38,364 nucleotides of DNA from Caldimicrobium sp. Lineage in GTDB: Bacteria; Desulfobacterota; Thermodesulfobacteria; Thermodesulfobacteriales; Thermodesulfobacteriaceae. How positions within the stretch are numbered: the stretch's first letter is position 1; the number at the start of each line of letters is the position of its first letter. The DNA lies in contig JANXDB010000066.1 in assembly GCA_025060015.1 (NCBI GenBank), forward strand, positions 72,635 through 110,998, in the 5' to 3' direction. This document shows positions 4,670 through 29,371 of the stretch, in pieces. The notes beneath the pieces were generated by a model. It did no database searches. It was not told the origin of the DNA and saw nothing but the letters and a program-made list of their open reading frames with translations. Made by a program: the position numbers and the translations under genes.

Positions 4670-5237
4670 GGACTCTACCCTCCTCAAAGGCTCTGATGTT
4701 GAGATCTACGGTCTTTCCAGGCACAGACTGTGTTATGGTTTCTCTCCAGATTTCCTCTTCAAAGGGCAAAAAAAGTGAGAGAACTCCTAATAGCACAGAG
4801 TTTTCTACCTTCGAGCTTCCCAACTTTTGAGCCACATCTTGAGCCTTCAGAGGAATGGCTTTATGACCTTTTTCCTTGATCCTTGACAAAACATTCTGGG
4901 GATACTGATTCACATCAAGGGCAGGAGGCACAATCTGTTTCTCATTGAGTATAACTATTCCCTCTGGTTTTAGGTAATGGAGATATCTTAAGGCTTCCAT
5001 TTCCTCTAACGCCAACATTATATCTGCTTCACCTGTGGGAATAGAAGGAGAATAGACCTTTCCTCCAAATCGAACCTGCCCTATGACTGAACCCCCTCTT
5101 TGAGCCATACCGTGTATCTCGCTTTCCTTCACATCAAATCCACTTTTCAAGGCACAATGGGCAATTATTCTGCTTGCCAGAACAATGCCCTGTCCACCTG
5201 TTCCAGCCAATAATACATTTATCACCCTGTCTGCCAT
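4638..5237 (-). CDS. iorB: Indolepyruvate ferredoxin oxidoreductase, beta subunit
   Basis: The 199-residue gamma-type pyruvate oxidoreductase domain that pairs with IorA. The N-terminus shows LLAGTGGQGIVLASRIIAHCAL, followed by KESEIHGMAQRGGSVIGQVRFG, both hallmarks of this subunit family. It is the first gene of the minus-strand paaK/ACT operon, so the ligases would be made together with the oxidoreductase whose aryl-acetyl-CoA product they use. A possible promoter lies at 5277-5305. Separation from iorA onto the opposite strand is unusual. Confidence 0.92.
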   Translation of the reverse strand: MADRVINVLLAGTGGQGIVLASRIIAHCALKSGFDVKESEIHGMAQRGGSVIGQVRFGGKVYSPSIPTGEADIMLALEEMEALRYLHYLKPEGIVILNEKQIVPPALDVNQYPQNVLSRIKEKGHKAIPLKAQDVAQKLGSSKVENSVLLGVLSLFLPFEEEIWRETITQSVPGKTVDLNIRAFEEGRVLGEKLLQSQS

Positions 5238-5276
5238 AGCTCTTCTCTCTGAAGTGTTTTTTCCAAGGAGATTAAC

Positions 5277-5305
5277 ATATTTTTAAATTTAAACAAGATT
5301 GACAA
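5277..5305 (-). promoter_or_regulatory. Candidate sigma70-type promoter of the iorB operon
   Basis: Reading the minus strand, TTGTCA (5305-5300) is separated by 17 bases from AAATAT (5282-5277). Transcription would start about 30-40 nt before the iorB ATG at 5237. The -35 is good and the -10 is mediocre. Confidence 0.4.
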
Positions 5306-5359
5306 CATGGTCGGAATTTAACTGGAGCGTTTTTCTCCTCTGATCATAGATAAGAACCA

Positions 5360-6001
5360 TTAAAATAAAGCGAATCTTCTTCGGTAAATCAAATATCTCT
5401 CGTAATCCACATAGGTATCGATATCAAAAAGAGGAGGCATTAGGAAATAAGGAACATCTCTTAATCTATCCAACGTTTCCTTTAAAAGGTTAGGAGTTTC
5501 AAAAGGTAGATCATCAAAAAGGATATATTGCCTTTCATATATGGTAGAGTTCATCCCCAAGATAACATAGCCACCGTCGTCGGAGGGAATAATTACCACT
5601 GGGTATTCTACTAATCTCCTTAGGCACTCATCAAGGTGTTGGTCCTCAATAAAAGGACAATCTGCTCCAAGAAGCAAGACTCTGGAGATACCTTGAGAAA
5701 AGAGATAATCTCCTGCCCTTTTTAACCTCTCTCCTAATGAAAATCCCTCCTGAGGGATAAATTTCCATCTCTCTTTTAAATTAAAGAGTGCAAAGACCTC
5801 CTCTCCAGGCGTTCCTAAGTAGAATCCAAATAGGGCTACTTTGCTTTTCTGGGTGTAAGTCTCAATGGTTTTGACAGTCTTTGCCAATAGTTCAACATAG
5901 ATTTGAAGGGCCTTGCTCTTACCTAACACCTTGGCAAGGCGTGTTTTAACCTTACCCTCCTCTGGAACCTTAAAGAAAAGAGCTATAGCCTCCTTTGACA
6001 T
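5360..6001 (-). CDS. TIGR04282-type transferase (rSAM/selenodomain-associated transferase 1)
   Basis: 213 residues. The N-terminus FFKVPEEGKVKTRLAKVLG and the core LLLGADCPFIEDQHLDECL and DDGGYVILGM match the GT-A-like transferase family named for its co-occurrence with ArsS-type radical SAM proteins. It probably transfers a sugar or other group from a nucleotide-activated donor; the substrate is not established. It is the last gene of the minus-strand ArsS-like cluster, 14 nt after the Fe-S/VTT gene. Unlike its upstream neighbours its frame is intact. Confidence 0.8.
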   Translation of the reverse strand: MSKEAIALFFKVPEEGKVKTRLAKVLGKSKALQIYVELLAKTVKTIETYTQKSKVALFGFYLGTPGEEVFALFNLKERWKFIPQEGFSLGERLKRAGDYLFSQGISRVLLLGADCPFIEDQHLDECLRRLVEYPVVIIPSDDGGYVILGMNSTIYERQYILFDDLPFETPNLLKETLDRLRDVPYFLMPPLFDIDTYVDYERYLIYRRRFALF

Positions 6002-6015
6002 TTGGCTTTAAGTTT

Positions 6016-7689
6016 TCAAATCTTCCATCTCCTATTGAGAGCCTTCAAAATAACAGAAAGGATCGTTAGTAGAATTAAGACAAAGATAAGGGGCAAAAAG
6101 TTTTTATTCAATATCAGCTCCTGCAAAGAATAACCAAAGAAGGTGTAAGCAAAACAAGCCGGCATCATAAAGAAAAAGGTTGTTAAAACATAGGCTTTTA
6201 GTGATATAGGAGTTAGCCCAAAGAGGTAATTTATCACCGGAAAAGGAAAGAAGGGAAAAAGCCTAGCAAAGGCTAAAGCCTTCCAGCCATGTTGTTCTGT
6301 CTTTTTCTTAATGTAATTCCAACGCATAACACCCAATCTGATGTATAGGGCATCCTTAAATAGATATCTACTCAGTAAAAAAGAAACCGTTGCACCTAAG
6401 GTTGCACCAGTCAAGGCAAAGACTGCTCCCCAAAGCGGTCCCCAAAGAAAACCTGCCAAGAGAGTTAACCCCAGGCTAGTGATAAATAGACTCGGAGCTA
6501 TGGCATAGAAAAACAGGTAAAGCAAATAAGAAAGGGGATTATGGGAGAGGGACAAAAGAAGGGATCTCAAATCCTCGAGATCTTGAAAAAAAACCTTTAA
6601 AGGGCCTCCTATGGCAAATATAATAATGGTTAGGAGAAAAAGGAAAATTAAACCTTTGGAATTAAATAGTTTTCTCCAAAGGGATAACCATAGTCGATTT
6701 AACCACTTATTTAAGGAACTTAATGGTTTAGATCCTAGTTCAATGCCTGGTAAAAATTCTAGCAAGTGAAAGGACTTTGGGTGAGTTCTCAAAAAGCGGT
6801 TTTTACAGCCCATGCAGAGAGTTATAATTGATTCTGAAGATGCCTTGACCAAAGCATTTCTCAGAAAACTTTCAGAAACCTCCTTATCAAAGCATGCTCC
6901 ACCACCTGCGCCGCAACAGGCAGGTATTCTCTGGGCTTTACCCCTGTCAATTGAAAATTTCTCACAGATTCTCTGCCTTAGATCCTCGAATTGAAAAAGA
7001 GGACAGGGAAGATGTAAAAAGGTGAAATCTGGCAGATTGGAAAAGGCATCCCTGGGGAGAACCACTAAAACATGATCCACCTTGACATTTTCACCAAAAC
7101 GATTAAAGATCTTATAACAGTTAAAACATCCTGTTATCACCCTTTTTATGCCAAAATATTCAAACCTCCCTTTGAAATCCTTCCATACATCATTTACATC
7201 CTCGAAGGCACCTAACTGGTAGAGGGGATCAAAGCAGCAATCAAGGATAAGGCCTACTTTCCTTTGTGGAAGGTGCCTTTTCAATAGCTTAAGAGTAGTC
7301 TTAACTACAGTGGGAGATGTTCCTCCTAAGCTACATCCAGGCCAAAAGGCAACCTCAGCCCTCTCCCAATGGGAAAAGGGGAAAGAATGGCCCCTTTGGG
7401 CAAATTCTAAGGCACTTTTTTTAAGCTGTAAGGCTAAAGCTGATTTCTTTGGTAAAAGCTTACTTTTTGTGACAAGGAGAGCATAGCCTGGTTTCAAACC
7501 CTCTGGGCAGACTATATTACAGGCAAAACAGTTGGTGCAGAGGAATATCTCTTCTCTTTCCTCTTTGATAAGCTCACCTGGGAGCCCAAACCTTCTAAGA
7601 AAAGGACAAAGCCTTTGACAAACTCCACATCCTTAACATCTAAGTAAGAGCTCCGAAACATCCTGTTCCGAAAAGGGCTGTGCAACCAT
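6016..7689 (-). pseudogene. Ferredoxin/CCG-domain Fe-S protein fused to a VTT membrane domain, interrupted by TAA
   Basis: Read through one stop, this is a 557-residue three-part protein. ATG at 7689 has GGAG nine bases upstream and overlaps the ArsS end by 50 nt. Residues 18-28 are C-x2-C-x2-C-x3-CP and residues 51-61 repeat that pattern, giving a two-[4Fe-4S] ferredoxin. Next comes an HdrB/GlpC-like region (FWPGCSLGG, CFNCYKIF, CCGAGGGACFD, CMGCKNRF). The last ~220 residues are a hydrophobic TVP38/DedA-like (VTT) domain. Codon 19 (7635-7633) is TAA, exactly between the first two cluster cysteines, with the frame perfect on both sides. So the stop is a nonsense change, not a gene boundary. 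A TTG restart at 7497 would lose both clusters. Probably a pseudogene, unless only the downstream part is used. Confidence 0.72.
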
Positions 7690-9608
7690 AACAATGGTCT
7701 CCAATCTTTATGGTCCCTCCTTCCAAAACCTCCAACCCTAATTTTCTTAAGGCAAAAACATCCTTTGGATGATCTATGCTTAGCCCTAAGGCCTGATTGA
7801 AATCACAGTCATAAAGTTTGCCCTCTGGAGATATACTTAAAAAATTAAGGCACATAAGTCTATTTAGGGTTTTTTTCATTGAAATTTTTAAAAAGAAGAT
7901 CATAATACTCCTCATACTTCCTTTCGGCTAAGAGATACTCTTTAAATCTTCCCAAAGGTAAGTTATTAAGAAATCCCTGAAGGTCTCTTTTAAAGAGCCT
8001 TTGCTCTTTACCAGGGCTAATTCCGTGGGATTAACCATGAGATAAAGAGGATATTTCCAACCGAAACCCTCTGCTGTCAAATCCTTAAGAACACGAAGTG
8101 CTCTTTTAAAAAAGCCCTTTCCTCTAAAAAAGTCCACTTTTTCCTCCCTAATGTGGGGAAAGGAGGCAATGAGTTTTACCCCTATGGTCTTAAAAAGCCC
8201 GATCAAATCCCATCTCTTTTCCAAAGCAGTTAGATTGGTCCGGAAGAAGATCTCCTTAGAAAAAGGGCTGATATCTTCTAAAAAATTTGATACAAAAGGG
8301 TTTAGCTCAGGCGCTCCTCCTGTTATATCAACGACAAGCCCTGGATTTCTTTTAGCAACTTCGACTATTGCTTCCATAACCTCTTCCTGCATAATAGTGC
8401 CATCAGGTCCTGCGTTGAGATGACAGTGAAGACAATTTTCATTACATCTATAGCCAAGATTTACCTGAAGAACCTCTATTTTCCCCTTGGTCAAGGCTTT
8501 ATTGAGGATACGGAGTTTTTCCTCAAAGGGTTTAAACTCATCCTTCCCAAATTGGATGCCACAGCAGGCTTCTTCAATCCTTTCTGCATCCCCCAAGGCT
8601 TCCTCCAAAAAAATAAACTGATCTTTGGCATACCTTTTAAGATTTCTATAACTTCTATCACAAATAGCTATCCTTTTTCCAACCTCATAGAGGTGCCCTT
8701 CAGTATCCTCAACCCTTTTAAAGGGTCCGATATAGATTACCTCCCTTTCTTTATCAATACAGACACCATCTTCACCTTTATAAGCCTCAATTGTTATGGA
8801 TCAAAAGACTATTCCCTCTATAACCTTCCAGGGATTCTTTTCATAATTAAGAATCCTCACACTGACAAACCCAGCTTTGATAAAGGCATCTATGAACCTA
8901 TCTTCTTTCATGGCACCCGAAATACATCCTGCCCAAAGATCAGGATCTATCCTCAAATACTCTGGAACCTCCCTATCTGATACAATATCACTTATCACTG
9001 CCCTTCCATGGGGCTTTAAGACCCTATAAATCTCCTGAAAAAGGATCCCCTTGTCTTCAGTTTTAACCAAGTTTAATACGCAGTTAGATACGACGGTATC
9101 GATAGAATTATCAGGAATCAGGGGCTCGTTAGTCTCGAGATAGGTAATAAAGGACTCAAGTTTAATAAGATCCTCGCTATTTTTGATGGGATTTTCTTTT
9201 AAAAAGGAGTCAAGCCTCTCTAAATCAAGCTTTAGGTTTTGAATCTTTGCCTTTATAAATTCTGTGTTCCAGTATCCAAGCTTTTCAGCTATTTCCCTTT
9301 GATATTTTCTAGCTAAACTTAGCATACTTTCATTGAAATCGACACCCATCACTCTTCCACTGGGTCCTACAATTTGAGCCATGATGTAGCAATTTTTACC
9401 AGCTCCACAGCCTAAATCAAGAACAATCTCTCCTTCCCTGACATAATAAGTGGGATCCCCACAGCCATAGTCTCGCTCTGAAATTTCCTGGGGAAGGATC
9501 TCCAATAACTTCTTGTTCTTGTATTCCACTGGACAACATAGAGACGATTCTTTCCTCTGAGCTGCCCTTTTTTAGGTCTCCAACACAGCTTCTTCCATAG
9601 AAACTCAC
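7640..9608 (-). pseudogene. Methyltransferase-ArsS radical SAM fusion, broken by a UGA and frame changes
   Basis: Residues from the 9608 GTG (FYGRSCVGDLKKGSSEE) lead, after a one-base frame change near 9551-9556, into SSLCCPVEYKNKKLLEILP and a class I methyltransferase (LDLGCGAGKNC, VVSNCVLNLV, LWAGCISGAMKEDRF). At 8803-8801 a UGA follows EGIVF; beyond it the same frame runs on (SITIEAYKGEDG ... ACCG) without any ATG or GTG into the ArsS-type radical SAM core (NLGYRCNENCLHCHLNAGP). Near 7950 the frame jumps to NNLPLGRFKEYL, with about ten expected residues missing. An A7 run at 7876-7870 restores the frame for LMCLNFLSISPEGKLYDCDF and the C-terminal HCYGCTALFGTGCFGAL. Related genes act in arsenosugar-like biosynthesis. 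As sequenced it cannot give one full-length protein. Confidence 0.75.
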
Positions 9609-9645
9609 CCCAAAAGAGTGGTAATTATCTAGAGTTTTAACCTAT

Positions 9646-10077
9646 TTACTTCTTTTTTAGAAGCTCCGGATAGGGCCAACCAGCAATACCACCCTTTAAT
9701 ATGTATAGTTTCTTCTCAGGAACTTCCTTTGACTTTGGATAATCATAGGTATTCTGAGCCCCGCTTCTGCCCCTTGGACATACGATAACCACAGGATCTT
9801 GGGGATTGTTATTGATAATGGGCAATGCCTTATCCAACCTTCTTTTTAACTCATCGGTATTTGCCGGAAAGGCATTGGTCTCAATGGATCCCTTGAAATG
9901 GGCCTTAGCAAAATCCTCAGGCGGTTGTATATCAACGATGATAACCTATCTCCCGGTTTGCAACCACTTCTTGAATTCCTCTGGTTCAAGAAAATTTGTA
10001 GCTAAGGCAACATTTACCAGTGAAATGATGAAAAAACTAACAAGCAATGATAACCTAATGCTTACTCTTTCCACCAT
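9646..10077 (-). pseudogene. Secreted rhodanese-domain protein interrupted by TAG
   Basis: From the ATG at 10077 (GGAGGGGATGAG just upstream) the frame gives a signal peptide (LSLLVSFFIISLVNVALA) then EPEEFKKWLQTGR, an in-frame TAG at codon 44 (9948-9946), and VIIVDIQPPEDFAKAHFKGS. It ends with the rhodanese active-site loop CPRGRSGA and LYILKGGIAGWPYPELL. Read through, it is 143 residues. The protein would sit in the periplasm and handle sulfur or a similar group on its active-site cysteine. Downstream the loop YDYPKSKEVPEKK has a proline where a helix residue would be expected, in line with relaxed constraint. It is second in the minus-strand cluster, after the GT2-type transferase. Confidence 0.72.
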
Positions 10078-24062: not shown

Positions 24063-24827
24063 TTATATGTGAATACTCTCTAAGATTTTTCCTTCACTTA
24101 AAATTTTCAATTCTGCATAGGAGGTAAGATCAAAATGAACTGGTGTTATGGTGATATATCCCTCTTTTAGAGAGACTACATCGGTGTATGGTGAGTTCTC
24201 CAAATGTTCCTCAGCTCCTTGCCAGTAATATATCTTTCCATGAAGATCCCTTCTCTTCTCGAAGACCTCTTTAAGCTTTGCAGTTGATTGCTTCACAACT
24301 CTTATACCCTTTATCTCGTTAGGATTGAGATGTGGTATGTTGATATTTAAACAAAAAGGTCTTTCTAAACAAACTTTATCAACATTTTTAATAAAATTGC
24401 TGATAAAATAAGAGGCATAACAATAATCAATATCTTCATAGGCATCTATAGATACCGCAATACCGGAATAACCCAGAATCTTTGCCTCTGTAGCAGCAGA
24501 AACTGTACCTGAGTATAACACATTTATACCTACATTTGCTCCCCTATTTATACCAGATATAACCAAATCAACAGGACCTACAAGCTCGTAGATGGCAAGC
24601 TTTACACAATCTGCAGGAGTGCCTGAAACGGCATATCCCCAGAATAATTTACCCCTTCTAATCTCTTGGACTCTTAGTGGATAGTGTATGGTTATGGCAT
24701 GTCCCACGGCACTTCGTTCTGCCTCTGGTGCAACAATGTATACCTCATGCTCAAGTGATAAGGCATGGTATAATCCACAGAGACCATCGGCATAAATTCC
24801 ATCATCATTGGTTAGTAAAATCTTCAT
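24063..24827 (-). CDS. surE: 5'/3'-nucleotidase SurE
   Basis: 254 residues from ATG 24827 (AGGGAG eight bases upstream; an upstream TTG at 24833 is less likely). Family motifs: MKILLTNDDGIYADGL with the metal-binding DD pair, APEAERSAVGHAIT, SGTPADCVKLA and SGINRGANVG. Dephosphorylates nucleoside monophosphates and is tied to stationary-phase survival. It starts 2 nt after the stop of a four-cysteine miniprotein. Confidence 0.95.
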   Translation of the reverse strand: MKILLTNDDGIYADGLCGLYHALSLEHEVYIVAPEAERSAVGHAITIHYPLRVQEIRRGKLFWGYAVSGTPADCVKLAIYELVGPVDLVISGINRGANVGINVLYSGTVSAATEAKILGYSGIAVSIDAYEDIDYCYASYFISNFIKNVDKVCLERPFCLNINIPHLNPNEIKGIRVVKQSTAKLKEVFEKRRDLHGKIYYWQGAEEHLENSPYTDVVSLKEGYITITPVHFDLTSYAELKILSEGKILESIHI

Positions 24828-24829
24828 AA

Positions 24830-24997
24830 TCAAAACTCCCTGAACTTTGACTTAAAGTGTAGTAAACACTGTTTTCTAAACTGACAATATTCCTTGGGGT
24901 GTTGGCAACCTATTTCAAGTAGGACCCACTCCTTGTATTTTTCACAATAGAGCCTCTCCCGATCTGCCTCTTTGGATTTCTCCTCTTTCATATCCAT
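24830..24997 (-). CDS. Four-cysteine miniprotein, unknown function
   Basis: 55 residues between argJ and surE. The ATG at 24997 touches the argJ stop (TAGATG) and its TGA is 2 nt from the surE ATG, so it fills the space exactly. It has a charged N-terminus (MDMKEEKSKEADRERLYCEK) and cysteines at 18, 31, 38 and 44 with a histidine at 33, which could bind zinc or form a CHCH-like disulfide hairpin. No family was recognised. The exact fit in the operon is the main evidence that it is a gene. Confidence 0.65.
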   Translation of the reverse strand: MDMKEEKSKEADRERLYCEKYKEWVLLEIGCQHPKEYCQFRKQCLLHFKSKFREF

Positions 24998-26146
24998 CTA
25001 GCTCCTATAGGATGCGTTAATTCTAATGTACTCTTCGGTAAGATCACAGGTAAATATTTCATAACTCTGTTTTCCTTTTTTGAGATTGATCAGCAGCTCT
25101 ATTTCGGACTTAGCAAGTTCTTCCTTGAATGTCTTCTCCGCTCCCTGCGGTTTCAAATTCTGAATCCAAGGAACTTTGTTTAAGTATAATTCCACTTCAG
25201 AAGGATCAAGGGCAATTCCTGTTTTACCAAGACTTGCAAATATTCGCCCCCAGTTGGGATCCTCTCCGTAGAAGGCAGTTTTAACGAGAGGAGATTCAGC
25301 TACTGCCCTTGCAAGGATTTTTGCTTCCTCTTTGGTTTTTGCTCCTTTAACCACTATTCTTATCACCTTGGAAGCACCCTCCCCATCTTTTACAATGAGA
25401 TAGGCTAATTCTCTCAATGTCCGCTGAAAAGAATCGGCAAAATCATCCCAATCATCTACCTGCTTTTTACCACTTGCCAGGGCATAGACGGTATCGTTGG
25501 TGCTAGTTTCTCCGTCAACGGTTATGCGATTAAAACTATTTTCAACACCCCTAACCAAGAGACTCCTTAAATCCTCTTTTTGAATTGATGCATCAGTTAA
25601 AATAAAAGCAAGCATAGTTGCCATGTTAGGGGCAATCATCCCTGCTCCCTTGGCAATTCCCAAAAGAGCAATTCCATCCTTCGTGGTCTTAGACACAATC
25701 TTTGGAAAGGTATCAGTGGTCATTATAGCTTGAGCAAAGAGACTGTAATTGTTAGTAGATAAGGTCTCGATAAGAATCGGAAGTTTCGGTATGATTGTCT
25801 CAACGGGAAGAGGTTCACCAATGACTCCGGTTGAAGCAGGCAAAAGTTCTTCGGGTGATATTTTCAAAAGTTTTGCCGTTTCTTCAATCAATTTAAGTGC
25901 CCTATGGAGACCATCCTCTCCTGTGCAAGCATTGGCAACACCACTATTTACAAGAATAGCTCTGGTGACTGAACTTCTTAGGTGTTTTTTCCCGATAATA
26001 ACAGGAGCTGCCTTAACAGAATTTCTGGTAAAAACACCACTGGCCACACCCTTATTTTGACAAAGTATTAATCCCAAATCCAATTTATCCCTTTTTCTTA
26101 TACCACAGGCTATGGCAGAGAATAAAAAACCCTCGGGTATATGCAT
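24998..26146 (-). CDS. argJ: Bifunctional glutamate N-acetyltransferase/amino-acid acetyltransferase ArgJ
   Basis: 382 residues; recycles the acetyl group from N-acetylornithine to glutamate in arginine synthesis. The self-cleavage region reads KGAGMIAPNMATMLAFILTDA, with the conserved Thr nucleophile after Ala-Thr-Met context, and FNRITVDGETSTNDTV and GEDPNWGRI follow. AGGGGGCGAG precedes the ATG. Third gene of the PilZ-PyrE operon. Confidence 0.95.
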   Translation of the reverse strand: MHIPEGFLFSAIACGIRKRDKLDLGLILCQNKGVASGVFTRNSVKAAPVIIGKKHLRSSVTRAILVNSGVANACTGEDGLHRALKLIEETAKLLKISPEELLPASTGVIGEPLPVETIIPKLPILIETLSTNNYSLFAQAIMTTDTFPKIVSKTTKDGIALLGIAKGAGMIAPNMATMLAFILTDASIQKEDLRSLLVRGVENSFNRITVDGETSTNDTVYALASGKKQVDDWDDFADSFQRTLRELAYLIVKDGEGASKVIRIVVKGAKTKEEAKILARAVAESPLVKTAFYGEDPNWGRIFASLGKTGIALDPSEVELYLNKVPWIQNLKPQGAEKTFKEELAKSEIELLINLKKGKQSYEIFTCDLTEEYIRINASYRS

Positions 26147-26163: not shown

Positions 26164-26919
26164 TTAGTGACCTTTTACCAATAGTAGTATACCTGTTATT
26201 AGAAGCATGACATTCACCATGTAGTAGTAAACTCTATTGGAGAGCCTACTGTAAAGCTTTTGCCCCAAATACAAGCCCATTATTACAAAAGGTAAAATCA
26301 AGATATAGGTCTTAAATATATCATAGGTTATATTTCCTACTAATAGATGATTTATAACAGCATTCAAAGCTATGAAAGCAAAGATAAGCTGTAGAGTAGC
26401 CTTGAATAGATCCTTATCCAAGCGTAAAAAAGATAGATAAATGATTAGAGGAGGGCCTGGAGTGTTCAGCAATCCACCGAGCATACCAGCTATGAGAGCA
26501 CTAGAAAGTCCCAGGGGATTACTGAAAAGTTTACTATCTATCTCATGACTATAAACCACCTCTTTGTTATATCGATATCTGTACATTTCCCATATAAAAA
26601 AAAACACAATAGCCACAAACAGTGTTATTCGGAGCAAGTACTCTGAAGCCAGGTTAAATCCCTGTATACCCAGGATTACCCCTATAGTTAGGGCCAAAAA
26701 GAACCTTAGCGGAATTTTAAAGATCTTTTTTTCCTTGAGAATTATAACCAGCAGCACATTTATTGTGAGGGAGTATAGCGCCATGAGAGGGACTGCCTGT
26801 TTAACCCCTGTGAATAGAGCAAGCAAAGGAAGAGCAGTCAATGCAAAGGCAAACCCCACTAAACCATGAATAAGACCAGACAAAAACAACACCAAAGCTA
26901 CAAGATAAAGTTTTTCCAT
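26164..26919 (-). CDS. TauE/SafE-family membrane exporter
   Basis: 251 residues with about eight hydrophobic segments. The N-terminal GLIHGLVGFAFALTALPLLAL and the mid GMLGGLLNTPGPPLIIYL are typical repeats of the TauE/SafE family, which moves sulfite, sulfoacetate or related anions. No ribosome site is evident, but the upstream stop is 7 nt away, so reinitiation is likely. The substrate is not determined. Confidence 0.85.
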   Translation of the reverse strand: MEKLYLVALVLFLSGLIHGLVGFAFALTALPLLALFTGVKQAVPLMALYSLTINVLLVIILKEKKIFKIPLRFFLALTIGVILGIQGFNLASEYLLRITLFVAIVFFFIWEMYRYRYNKEVVYSHEIDSKLFSNPLGLSSALIAGMLGGLLNTPGPPLIIYLSFLRLDKDLFKATLQLIFAFIALNAVINHLLVGNITYDIFKTYILILPFVIMGLYLGQKLYSRLSNRVYYYMVNVMLLITGILLLVKGH

Positions 26920-26925
26920 TTTGAA

Positions 26926-27900
26926 TTAAAGCTCTTGGGAGTGCTTATGAAAAGCTGAGATTATCTCTGATAAGGTAAAAAAGGCATAAAGATCATAGCC
27001 CTCAACTCTTAACTTTTCTTTTCCTCCCTCTTCTCTATCGATTAAGCTTAAAACATTAATTATCCTAAGACCTTCCTTTTTACAGGCGTCAATGGCTTTT
27101 AGGAGAGACCCTCCTGTGGTTACTACATCTTCTACCAGTGCAATAGGCATACCAGGGTAGAAGTTTCCTTCGATCTGTCTCTCTGTGCCATATTTTTTGG
27201 GTTCCTTTCTAATCAAAAGACCCTCTAAATTTACCCCCTCCTCCAAAGCCTCTGACAGAGTTGCACACACGATAGGGTCTGCCCCTAGGCTCATGCCTGC
27301 AATGCCTTCAATTTGATAATCTCTAAGAGCTTCCCAGAAAAGTCTTCCTATCATCTTAAATGTAGGACCAAATAGGGTTATCTTTCGACAGTCTAAATAG
27401 TAAGGACTTTCTTTGCCACTTGAAAGCTTGAAGGGCTGCTGTGGTCTGTATAACAATGCCCTATCTAAAATATAGGGCATTATTTCAGCTTTGATATGAA
27501 AGAAATTCAATAACTTTATCATCCTAGGAAGGGGATGGATATCATGTAAAAACCTATTAATCTCAGCCTCAGCCTTAGTTAAAGATTCAAGATTATAATA
27601 GAAGTATTTTTTGATATGCTCAAAGGATTGTTCGTTTATGGAGGTTAACCTGAGAGCAAATCCCACATCATCTGTCCTAATTACCTTTCCTTTCATGAAT
27701 ACTTTTATAGGTGGTTCCGTTTCCTTAAGGATGAAAACTAAAGCTACCTCCTCATAAAGATCTGGCTTTGCATCAGAACTATAGATATAGACACCACCTA
27801 AGCCAATGTCCCTGAATTTACCTCTGAATGAACCCTTTTGGCAAAGGACTTCTACATGCTCCTCAAAGGGTAATCTGAAATATTTTCTCTTTTCAATCAT
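26926..27900 (-). CDS. pyrE: PilZ domain fused to orotate phosphoribosyltransferase
   Basis: 324 residues. Residues 1-~110 look like a PilZ domain, the c-di-GMP receptor: R5-x3-R9 (EKRKYFRL) and DIGLGG at 31-36, where the usual [DN]xSxxG serine is Gly33. Residues ~140-324 are PyrE: PFKLSSGKESPYYLDCRK, catalytic-loop lysines in RKEPKKYGTERQIEG, and the PRPP loop ALVEDVVTTGGS (about 254-265). PyrE makes OMP for pyrimidine synthesis. The fusion suggests nucleotide second-messenger control of pyrimidine synthesis, but the Ser-to-Gly change leaves ligand binding open. No ribosome site; a promoter puts the RNA start next to the ATG, so the message may be leaderless. Confidence 0.88.
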   Translation of the reverse strand: MIEKRKYFRLPFEEHVEVLCQKGSFRGKFRDIGLGGVYIYSSDAKPDLYEEVALVFILKETEPPIKVFMKGKVIRTDDVGFALRLTSINEQSFEHIKKYFYYNLESLTKAEAEINRFLHDIHPLPRMIKLLNFFHIKAEIMPYILDRALLYRPQQPFKLSSGKESPYYLDCRKITLFGPTFKMIGRLFWEALRDYQIEGIAGMSLGADPIVCATLSEALEEGVNLEGLLIRKEPKKYGTERQIEGNFYPGMPIALVEDVVTTGGSLLKAIDACKKEGLRIINVLSLIDREEGGKEKLRVEGYDLYAFFTLSEIISAFHKHSQEL

Positions 27901-28071: not shown

Positions 28072-28677
28072 ATGTGTATAAGACCAGGCGTTAAAGCTCC
28101 TGATTTTACAGCCCAGGCAAGTTTTCCAGGCGGTGAAATTGGAACCATCAAATTATCAGATTATGCTGGTAAGTGGGTAGTGCTCATGTTTTATCCTGCT
28201 GATTTCACCTTTGTCTGACCTACAGAGATGGCAGCAGTTGCTGCCAAGGCTGGAGATCTATCTAGATTAAACACAACTCTTCTTGCCATAAGCATTGATA
28301 CTGTTTTTAGCCACATAGTATGGAATGAGACAGAGCTAAGCAAGTTAATTCCAGGTGGATTTCCCTTTCCCATGGTATCTGATCTGAGTGGTAAGATCGG
28401 ACAGCTTTACGGCGTTTACGATGAAAACTTGAATTTAGATTTAAGAGGCACCTTTATCATTGATCCTGATGGAGTTATTCAGGTAGCACAGGTTTACAAT
28501 GCTCCCATTGGTAGAAACTTTGACGAATTAGTGAGGGCCATTGAAGCTGCTCAACATGTAAGAAACGCTGAAGGCAAAGAGGCCTGTCCCGCAGATTGGA
28601 AACCAGGGGCAGCTACTTTAAAACCATCAAAGGATCTCATAGGAAAGGTTTATCAATCCTGGGGAAGACAGGGATAG
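28072..28677 (+). CDS. Selenocysteine-containing 2-Cys peroxiredoxin (copy 1)
   Basis: Reduces hydrogen or organic peroxides. ATG 28072 follows GAGGAGGTG. Codon 49 is TGA (28216-28218) at the peroxidatic site: [20 protein letters not shown], i.e. P42-x3-T46-x2-U49 where relatives have Cys. The frame continues to a TAG at 28675-28677, giving 201 residues. R148 (APIGRN) and the resolving C172 (EACPADW) are in place, as in typical AhpC/Prx1-type enzymes, so a selenenylsulfide U49-C172 bridge between subunits is expected. A SECIS-like hairpin follows the UGA. Calling from the Met at 28228 would lose the whole active-site half. Needs SelA/SelB/SelC/SelD, which are not in the window. Confidence 0.93.
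28216..28246 (+). promoter_or_regulatory. UGA(Sec) codon and SECIS-like hairpin, copy 1
   Basis: TGA at 28216-28218, ten bases, then a 7-bp stem TGGCAGC (28229-28235) / GCTGCCA (28240-28246) closing an AGTT loop. The loop lies about 20 nt after the UGA, within the bacterial SECIS range, and carries the G-U expected for SelB binding. The same hairpin follows the UGA in copy 2. Confidence 0.85.
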
Positions 28678-28721: not shown

Positions 28722-28756
28722 AATAAATAAGTATAATCATCTTGGGGAGGCATCCG

Positions 28757-29371
28757 ATGAACATCCGACCTGGTATGAAGGCACCTGCCTTTGAAGTTCA
28801 GGCCTATTTCAACGATGGACAGATAAAGAATGTCAAACTCTCTGATTATAATGGTAAGTGGTTGATCTTGTTTTTCTATCCAGCTGATTTCACCTTTGTC
28901 TGACCAACAGAAATGGCAGCAGTTGCTGCCAAAGCGGAAGACCTAAAGAGGTTAAATACCGAACTTTTAGCTATAAGTATTGACACCGTATTCGTTCACA
29001 AAGTTTGGCAGGAGACAGAACTGAGCAAACTAATTCCAGGAGGCTTCCCTTATCCCATGGCTTGGGATATTGAGGGTAAAGTGGGCAGGCTATATGGTGT
29101 TTATGCAGAAGAAATGGGTATCAATCTTAGAGGCACCTTTCTCATTGATCCCGAGGGAATCGTTAGAGTAGTCCAAATATATGACGCACCCATTGGCAGA
29201 AACTATGAAGAGATAGTAAGGATGACCGAGGCAGCTCAATATGTTCGTGCATCAGGTGGAGCAGAGGCTTGCCCAGCCAATTGGAAACCAGGTAAAAGCA
29301 CCATCAAACCGTCTGCAGAACTAGCTGGTAGGGTATATGAAATATGGAATCCAAGTGAACTAGATAATTAA
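28757..29371 (+). CDS. Selenocysteine-containing 2-Cys peroxiredoxin (copy 2)
   Basis: Paralogue of the gene 79 nt upstream. ATG 28757 follows GGGGAGG. TGA at codon 49 (28901-28903) again replaces the peroxidatic cysteine (DFTFV-U-PTEMAA); the frame runs to 29371, giving 204 residues. R148 and the resolving C172 (EACPANW) are conserved. Most substitutions against copy 1 are conservative, and the DNA around the UGA and hairpin is nearly identical while flanking DNA has drifted. Copy 2 probably arose by tandem duplication and differs at the N-terminal surface ([14 protein letters not shown]) and the C-terminal tail, hinting at different substrates or partners. Confidence 0.93.
28901..28931 (+). 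promoter_or_regulatory. UGA(Sec) codon and SECIS-like hairpin, copy 2
   Basis: TGA at 28901-28903, ten bases, stem TGGCAGC (28914-28920) / GCTGCCA (28925-28931) with loop AGTT. Stem, loop and spacing are identical to copy 1. Confidence 0.85.

Follow-up and report, generated by a model that had tools for sequence, protein, structure and literature searches.

The window analysed here is a stretch of 38,364 nucleotides from a Caldimicrobium sp. genome (contig JANXDB010000066.1 of assembly GCA_025060015.1). One uninterrupted open reading frame within it encodes a 324-residue protein, in which a PilZ domain is followed by an orotate phosphoribosyltransferase (OPRT), PyrE (Table 1). The fusion gene heads a tight row of genes on the same strand, comprising tauE, argJ, an open reading frame for 55 residues (p55), and surE; the first two spacings are gaps of 6 and 17 bp, argJ and p55 abut, and p55 and surE overlap by 4 bp. 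The p55 product has four cysteines and has no convincing family match in Pfam and NCBIfam.

Table 1. Features of the pilZ-pyrE locus, in window coordinates
Feature	Position	Strand	Basis or remark
pilZ-pyrE fusion gene, 324 aa	26926..27900	(-)	Open reading frame; Pfam PilZ and TIGR00336
PilZ half, aa 1-121	27538..27900	(-)	Pfam, AF2 model, Foldseek
RxxxR motif (R5-K-Y-F-R9)	27874..27888	(-)	Invariant in 21/21 fusions
Second PilZ motif (D31-x-G33-x-x-G36)	27793..27810	(-)	DIGLGG in the window protein
Junction, aa 122-135	27496..27537	(-)	Continues into the first helix of the PyrE half
PyrE (orotate phosphoribosyltransferase) half, aa 136-324	26929..27495	(-)	TIGR00336, structural Z
Active-site loop RKEPKKYGTERQIEGN, aa 231-246	27163..27210	(-)	Resembles known OPRT loops
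PRPP-binding motif VEDVVTTGGS, aa 256-265	27106..27135	(-)	Alignment of fusions
TauE/SafE family transporter	26164..26919	(-)	Pfam PF01925; beside the fusion in Caldimicrobium-type loci
argJ	24998..26146	(-)	Profile matches; conserved neighbour
55-aa ORF (p55)	24830..24997	(-)	40-85% identity in 7 related loci
surE nucleotidase	24063..24833	(-)	Profile matches; conserved neighbour

The initial annotation, made from the sequence, had described a PilZ domain preceding a complete PyrE, with RxxxR present and a second motif of the form DxGxxG, and each element of that description is borne out. The Pfam PilZ profile (PF07238) matches residues 3–101 with a score of 47.4 bits, where the cut-off is 22.5 (E = 2.6e-12), the NCBIfam pyrE profile TIGR00336 matches residues 156–312 with 118.1 bits against an equivalog-domain cut-off of 106.8, the folds of both halves are matched by known structures, and the two PilZ motifs read as listed in Table 1. 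The fusion is neither a chance juxtaposition nor an assembly error, since it is present at full length in 21 genomes of the order, single-contig assemblies among them. It is also the sole full pyrE of the source genome, which is 99% complete, and so must encode a working enzyme.

For the full-length protein, the AF2 model reaches a pLDDT of 85 and a pTM of 0.68, and its relative placement of the two halves is perhaps unreliable. A fold search with this full model gave phosphoribosyltransferases alone among the matches listed, and the PilZ half was therefore modelled separately (pLDDT 83.6). It folds in the model into a six-stranded β-barrel followed by two C-terminal helices (residues 90–104 and 107–119), which in turn run into the long helix, residues 123–148, that opens the PyrE half. 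In a Foldseek search, the top PDB matches of the isolated PilZ half are PA4608/MapZ, followed by the PilZ domains of Alg44 and CeSA; all eight PDB chains with E ≤ 0.001 are PilZ proteins, several of them c-di-GMP complexes, and structure prediction thus agrees with the assignment of the N-terminal domain. A profile built from the 21 PilZ halves matches PA4608/MapZ with E = 1.5e-6 (profile positions 2–116 to chain positions 7–119), a match that spans both the barrel and the C-terminal helices.

The PyrE half superimposes on OPRT structures with Z scores of 22–23 and rmsd values of 1.7–2.0 Å, including Z = 23.1 to 2p1z and Z = 22.6 to the Mycobacterium tuberculosis enzyme. In the alignment of all fusions, residues R231, K232, E233, K235, Y237, and G238 of the active-site loop are invariant, as are E257, D258, T261, T262, G263, and S265 of the PRPP-binding motif. 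The fusion protein is predicted to have orotate phosphoribosyltransferase activity. Several unfused relatives have a histidine (KGHGT) at the position of Y237 (27190–27192); the tyrosine is not specific to fusions, as an unfused PyrE (L015) likewise reads KKYGT.

Among the Caldimicrobium-type loci, those that extend far enough retain the order fusion-tauE-argJ-p55-surE-HTH, and three further loci (L054, L056, and L058) have the same order without tauE. In Thermodesulfobacterium, the fusion lies behind fur and feoA and ahead of a pstS-like binding-protein gene; argJ-surE is found further downstream in two of these loci (L049 and L050), and none was seen in three others (L052, L057, and L059). 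The pstS-like gene in L052 is followed by genes for a response regulator and a histidine kinase (5219–9793). The operon partners first proposed for the fusion are thus all present, but the nucleotide-metabolism theme read into them is weak, because the Thermodesulfobacterium context is fur-feoA and pstS-like, with argJ-surE further downstream or not seen. An arginine–pyrimidine association, as argB-pyrE or pyrE-argJ, is more constant. Elsewhere in the window, two tandem peroxiredoxin genes lie on the forward strand, at 28742–29371 and, as an upstream copy, at about 28073–28677. The former has an in-frame TGA at the position of the peroxidatic cysteine (FTFV-TGA-PTE), the upstream copy is seemingly interrupted at about the same point, and a strong match to tRNA-Sec (84 bits) is present in the source genome; the two are probably selenocysteine proteins.

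Full-length fusions are present in 21 of the 41 genomes of the order, all from one family: seven of seven genomes in the window's genus, 13 of 14 in a second, and the one genome of a third. The sole non-carrier in the second genus is a genome that is 70% complete, in which there was no match. Stand-alone PyrE is encoded in two other genera of the family (seven genomes) and by all 11 genomes from other families of the order; no PyrE was found in one family genome that is 64% complete. Among 395 genomes sampled from the phylum, there were 10 full-length matches, all from the window's own family, and the remaining matches listed cover PyrE only, bar one spurious read-through extension. The latter, in genome G136 (L014), had suggested a PilZ gene upstream of pyrE, a reading that was rejected: the match starts at residue 49 and runs through a stop, and the upstream frame encodes a SurA-like protein. 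A scan of 84,980 species with two PyrE peptides as query, which divergent fusions would escape, recovered 16 fusions, labelled Caldimicrobium, Thermodesulfobacterium, Thermodesulfatator, Thermodesulfobacteriaceae, or Thermodesulfobacteriota. In a tree of the PyrE halves, a single branch with support of 100/99 separates all 21 distinct fusions from the rest, which indicates that the PilZ–PyrE fusion arose once.

A separate PilZ gene resembling the fused half is present in five genomes of the sister genera (G289, G364, G415, G417, and G418) and in G269, from another family. Where their start is clear, these stand-alone proteins are about 121–126 residues long; they match residues 1–124 of the fusion with 79–98 bits and end at about the fusion junction. 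Because the match takes in the linker-like stretch of the fusion as well (...SLTHLRRLLYFNLPDADQAERELRDLLGEA), the fusion seems to have been assembled from two complete genes. In G289, the stand-alone pyrE and the PilZ gene occupy separate loci, the latter adjoining a radA-like gene, with trxA- and trxB-like genes. The pyrE of the same genome is overlapped by 4 bp by an argB-like amino-acid kinase gene (L108, 5966–7386). In G269, another PilZ gene (L106), about 0.75 kb from pyrE and on the opposite strand, was set aside as a different PilZ (28.6 and 35.9 bits), not of the fused type. A search of the fused genomes for a second copy of the fused PilZ type found none, except at the C-terminal ends of chemoreceptors in two of them. 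These chemoreceptors (HAMP and MCPsignal domains), from the window's genus, are encoded at L111, 2107–4065 (-), and L112, 568–2547 (+); L119 of genome G405 is probably a chemoreceptor with a like PilZ domain, judged by PilZ match and length only. In a PilZ tree, which is short and has weak inner branches, the fused domains lie apart from the stand-alone ones.

The initial annotation had also suggested a search for further fusions and for the residue in their second motif. Across the 21 fusions found, position 33 is Ser in 18, Gly in two, and Ala in one, position 31 is Asp or Asn in all, and position 36 is Gly in 19. The complete [DN]xSxxG motif is present in 16 of the 21, the fusions of T. geofontis and T. 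thermophilum among them; the window protein, with DxGxxG, departs from it and has this Ser-to-Gly change in common only with its nearest relative among the fusions, L044, at 73% identity. The other departures are an Ala at the Ser position in L011 and loss of the last Gly in L045 and L046, Gly to Ser being among the changes, so that all five (S to G, S to A, last G to S) fall in or near Caldimicrobium. Ala also occupies the Ser position in five of the six stand-alone counterparts, and L119, a 661-residue frame with a PilZ of the fused type, also reads DxGxxG. Given this spread of Ser, Ala, and Gly across fusions, stand-alone counterparts, and L119, the Ser position appears to tolerate small residues in the fusion lineage, and the alignment marks DxGxxG as a local change rather than a hallmark of the fusion family. 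The residue preceding R5 is Lys or Arg in 20 of the 21 fusions; a basic residue just before RxxxR favours dimeric c-di-GMP binding. In solved PilZ complexes, the Asp, Ser, and Gly of the second motif contact the base and ribose (PMC7288161). The Ser-to-Gly change of the window protein may weaken c-di-GMP binding without abolishing it, and the departures on the Caldimicrobium side could mean weakened or lost binding there.

Taken further, the departures in five of 21 fusions, the window's included, would fit a PilZ half that has lost or is losing its ligand and now serves as a structural extension, for stability or dimerisation, of a thermophilic PyrE; some PilZ proteins are indeed adaptors that do not bind c-di-GMP (PMC7288161). 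We regard this as unlikely. R5 and R9 are two of just five PilZ-half residues after Met1 that are fully invariant, in fusions that are about 48–73% identical to the window protein, and the five motif positions, taken together, show stronger conservation than randomly drawn sets of positions in the PilZ half (p ~0.0009, a rough value, as the sequences are related). Sister genera of the same family, moreover, manage without a PilZ domain on PyrE. For close pairs, dN/dS is 0.06–0.16 in the PilZ half and 0.03–0.13 in the PyrE half, and two more distant pairs give 0.22–0.23 in the PilZ half; by this measure the PilZ half is under purifying selection similar to that on the PyrE half, and is maintained rather than freely drifting.

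A putative source of the ligand is encoded throughout the family, with GGDEF domains in 30 of 30 genomes. The source genome does not lack candidate diguanylate cyclases: three of its seven GGDEF proteins have an intact GG[DE]EF site, one further GGDEF protein has an EALLR motif, and of two other PilZ genes one has both canonical motifs.

On balance, we lean toward reading the fusion as a c-di-GMP-responsive orotate phosphoribosyltransferase that derives from a single joining of two complete genes. A stand-alone PilZ protein like PA4608/MapZ, of about 121–126 residues and with two C-terminal helices, would have been linked to the only PyrE of the cell in the common ancestor of Caldimicrobium and Thermodesulfobacterium, and the joined gene would then have taken the place of the separate pyrE. 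The PilZ half would bind c-di-GMP, and binding would move its C-terminal helices, which in the model lead straight into the first helix of PyrE; this movement would change the PyrE dimer or the mobile loop of the enzyme, and UMP synthesis, together with PRPP use, would thereby be matched to the motile or sessile state. High c-di-GMP more likely reduces PyrE activity, by analogy with MapZ, which in its c-di-GMP-bound form inhibits a partner enzyme (PMC7288161); activation, as in BcsA, is possible. The broader proposition is that, in a whole bacterial family, de novo pyrimidine synthesis is under allosteric control by c-di-GMP through a MapZ-like PilZ domain in PyrE, with the motile/sessile signal directly setting UMP production and PRPP consumption; we advance it tentatively, as having slightly less than an even chance. 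The tie between pyrimidine synthesis and a second messenger that was originally suggested thus draws support from motif conservation, fold, family-wide GGDEF domains, and purifying selection, but its two central steps, binding and an effect on catalysis, are inferred only.

A PilZ half that binds c-di-GMP could instead dock or localise the enzyme, through a flagellar, secretion, or pyrimidine-enzyme partner, with catalysis unchanged. The closest solved relative, MapZ/PA4608, does act by binding a partner protein, CheR1 (5xly, 5y4r), and related PilZ domains are found on chemoreceptors in the same family, but the covalent link to a metabolic enzyme, made helix to helix, suggests that the PilZ half acts in cis, and no conserved partner was identified; we consider docking quite unlikely. 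We know of no PilZ domain with an established ligand other than c-di-GMP. Sensing of another nucleotide (GTP, ppGpp, UMP/UTP, or another cyclic dinucleotide) as ordinary metabolic feedback is very improbable: such feedback on the pyrimidine pathway would make physiological sense and the Ser position is relaxed (S/A/G), but the RxxxR, D/N, and G positions are c-di-GMP contacts in solved PilZ complexes (PMC7288161).

If the fusion is indeed a c-di-GMP-responsive PyrE, pyrimidine supply in this family of thermophilic sulfur bacteria would be tuned by the signal that decides between swimming and settling. c-di-GMP is best known for its control of motility, biofilm matrix, and development, and examples in primary metabolism are few. 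A PilZ sensor covalently joined to an essential and assayable enzyme would offer a clean test of lifestyle-tuned nucleotide synthesis, for which the sister genera supply the unfused parts for comparison. Literature searches for PilZ with orotate phosphoribosyltransferase found no description of such a fusion, the papers listed being unrelated, and a search for Thermodesulfobacterium with PilZ found nothing. The initial annotation's view that a link between a second messenger and pyrimidine synthesis is undescribed appears to stand for the fusion itself but not for the wider subject, as UMP synthesis is reported to be linked to the biofilm matrix in Escherichia coli by another route (PMC3281075). 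With 221 PilZ architectures in Pfam (PMC7288161), the PilZ–PyrE fusion could be on record in databases and still have gone undiscussed.

The two halves and their combination can be set against known systems. The PilZ half has the barrel, RxxxR, second motif, and C-terminal helices in common with the single-domain protein PA4608/MapZ of Pseudomonas aeruginosa (2l74, 5xly, 5y4r), which is stand-alone and inhibits the methyltransferase CheR1 in trans, whereas the PilZ domain of the fusion is in cis to PyrE. The PyrE half has the fold, PRPP motif, and active-site loop of bacterial PyrE from M. tuberculosis (5hkf), Corynebacterium diphtheriae (2p1z), and Streptococcus pyogenes (2aee), none of which has a second-messenger domain. 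UMP synthase, in the form of OPRT-ODC fusions, likewise places PyrE in a multidomain protein, but there PyrE is joined to the enzyme that catalyses the following pathway step, whereas the partner in PilZ–PyrE is a sensor domain. GlgX of Streptomyces venezuelae is, to our knowledge, not a PilZ fusion. It is nevertheless a metabolic enzyme under direct c-di-GMP regulation (PMC9530166), acting in glycogen breakdown as opposed to pyrimidine synthesis, and what is new here thus appears to be the PilZ–PyrE fusion, direct control of a metabolic enzyme by c-di-GMP being already known. In BcsA, Alg44, YcgR, MrkH, and other PilZ effectors, as in the fusion, a PilZ domain is fused to or part of the output protein; c-di-GMP controls the output of these effectors (PMC7288161), as it would in the fusion. 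The outputs there are exopolysaccharide synthesis, flagella, or transcription, whereas in PilZ–PyrE the output would be core nucleotide synthesis.
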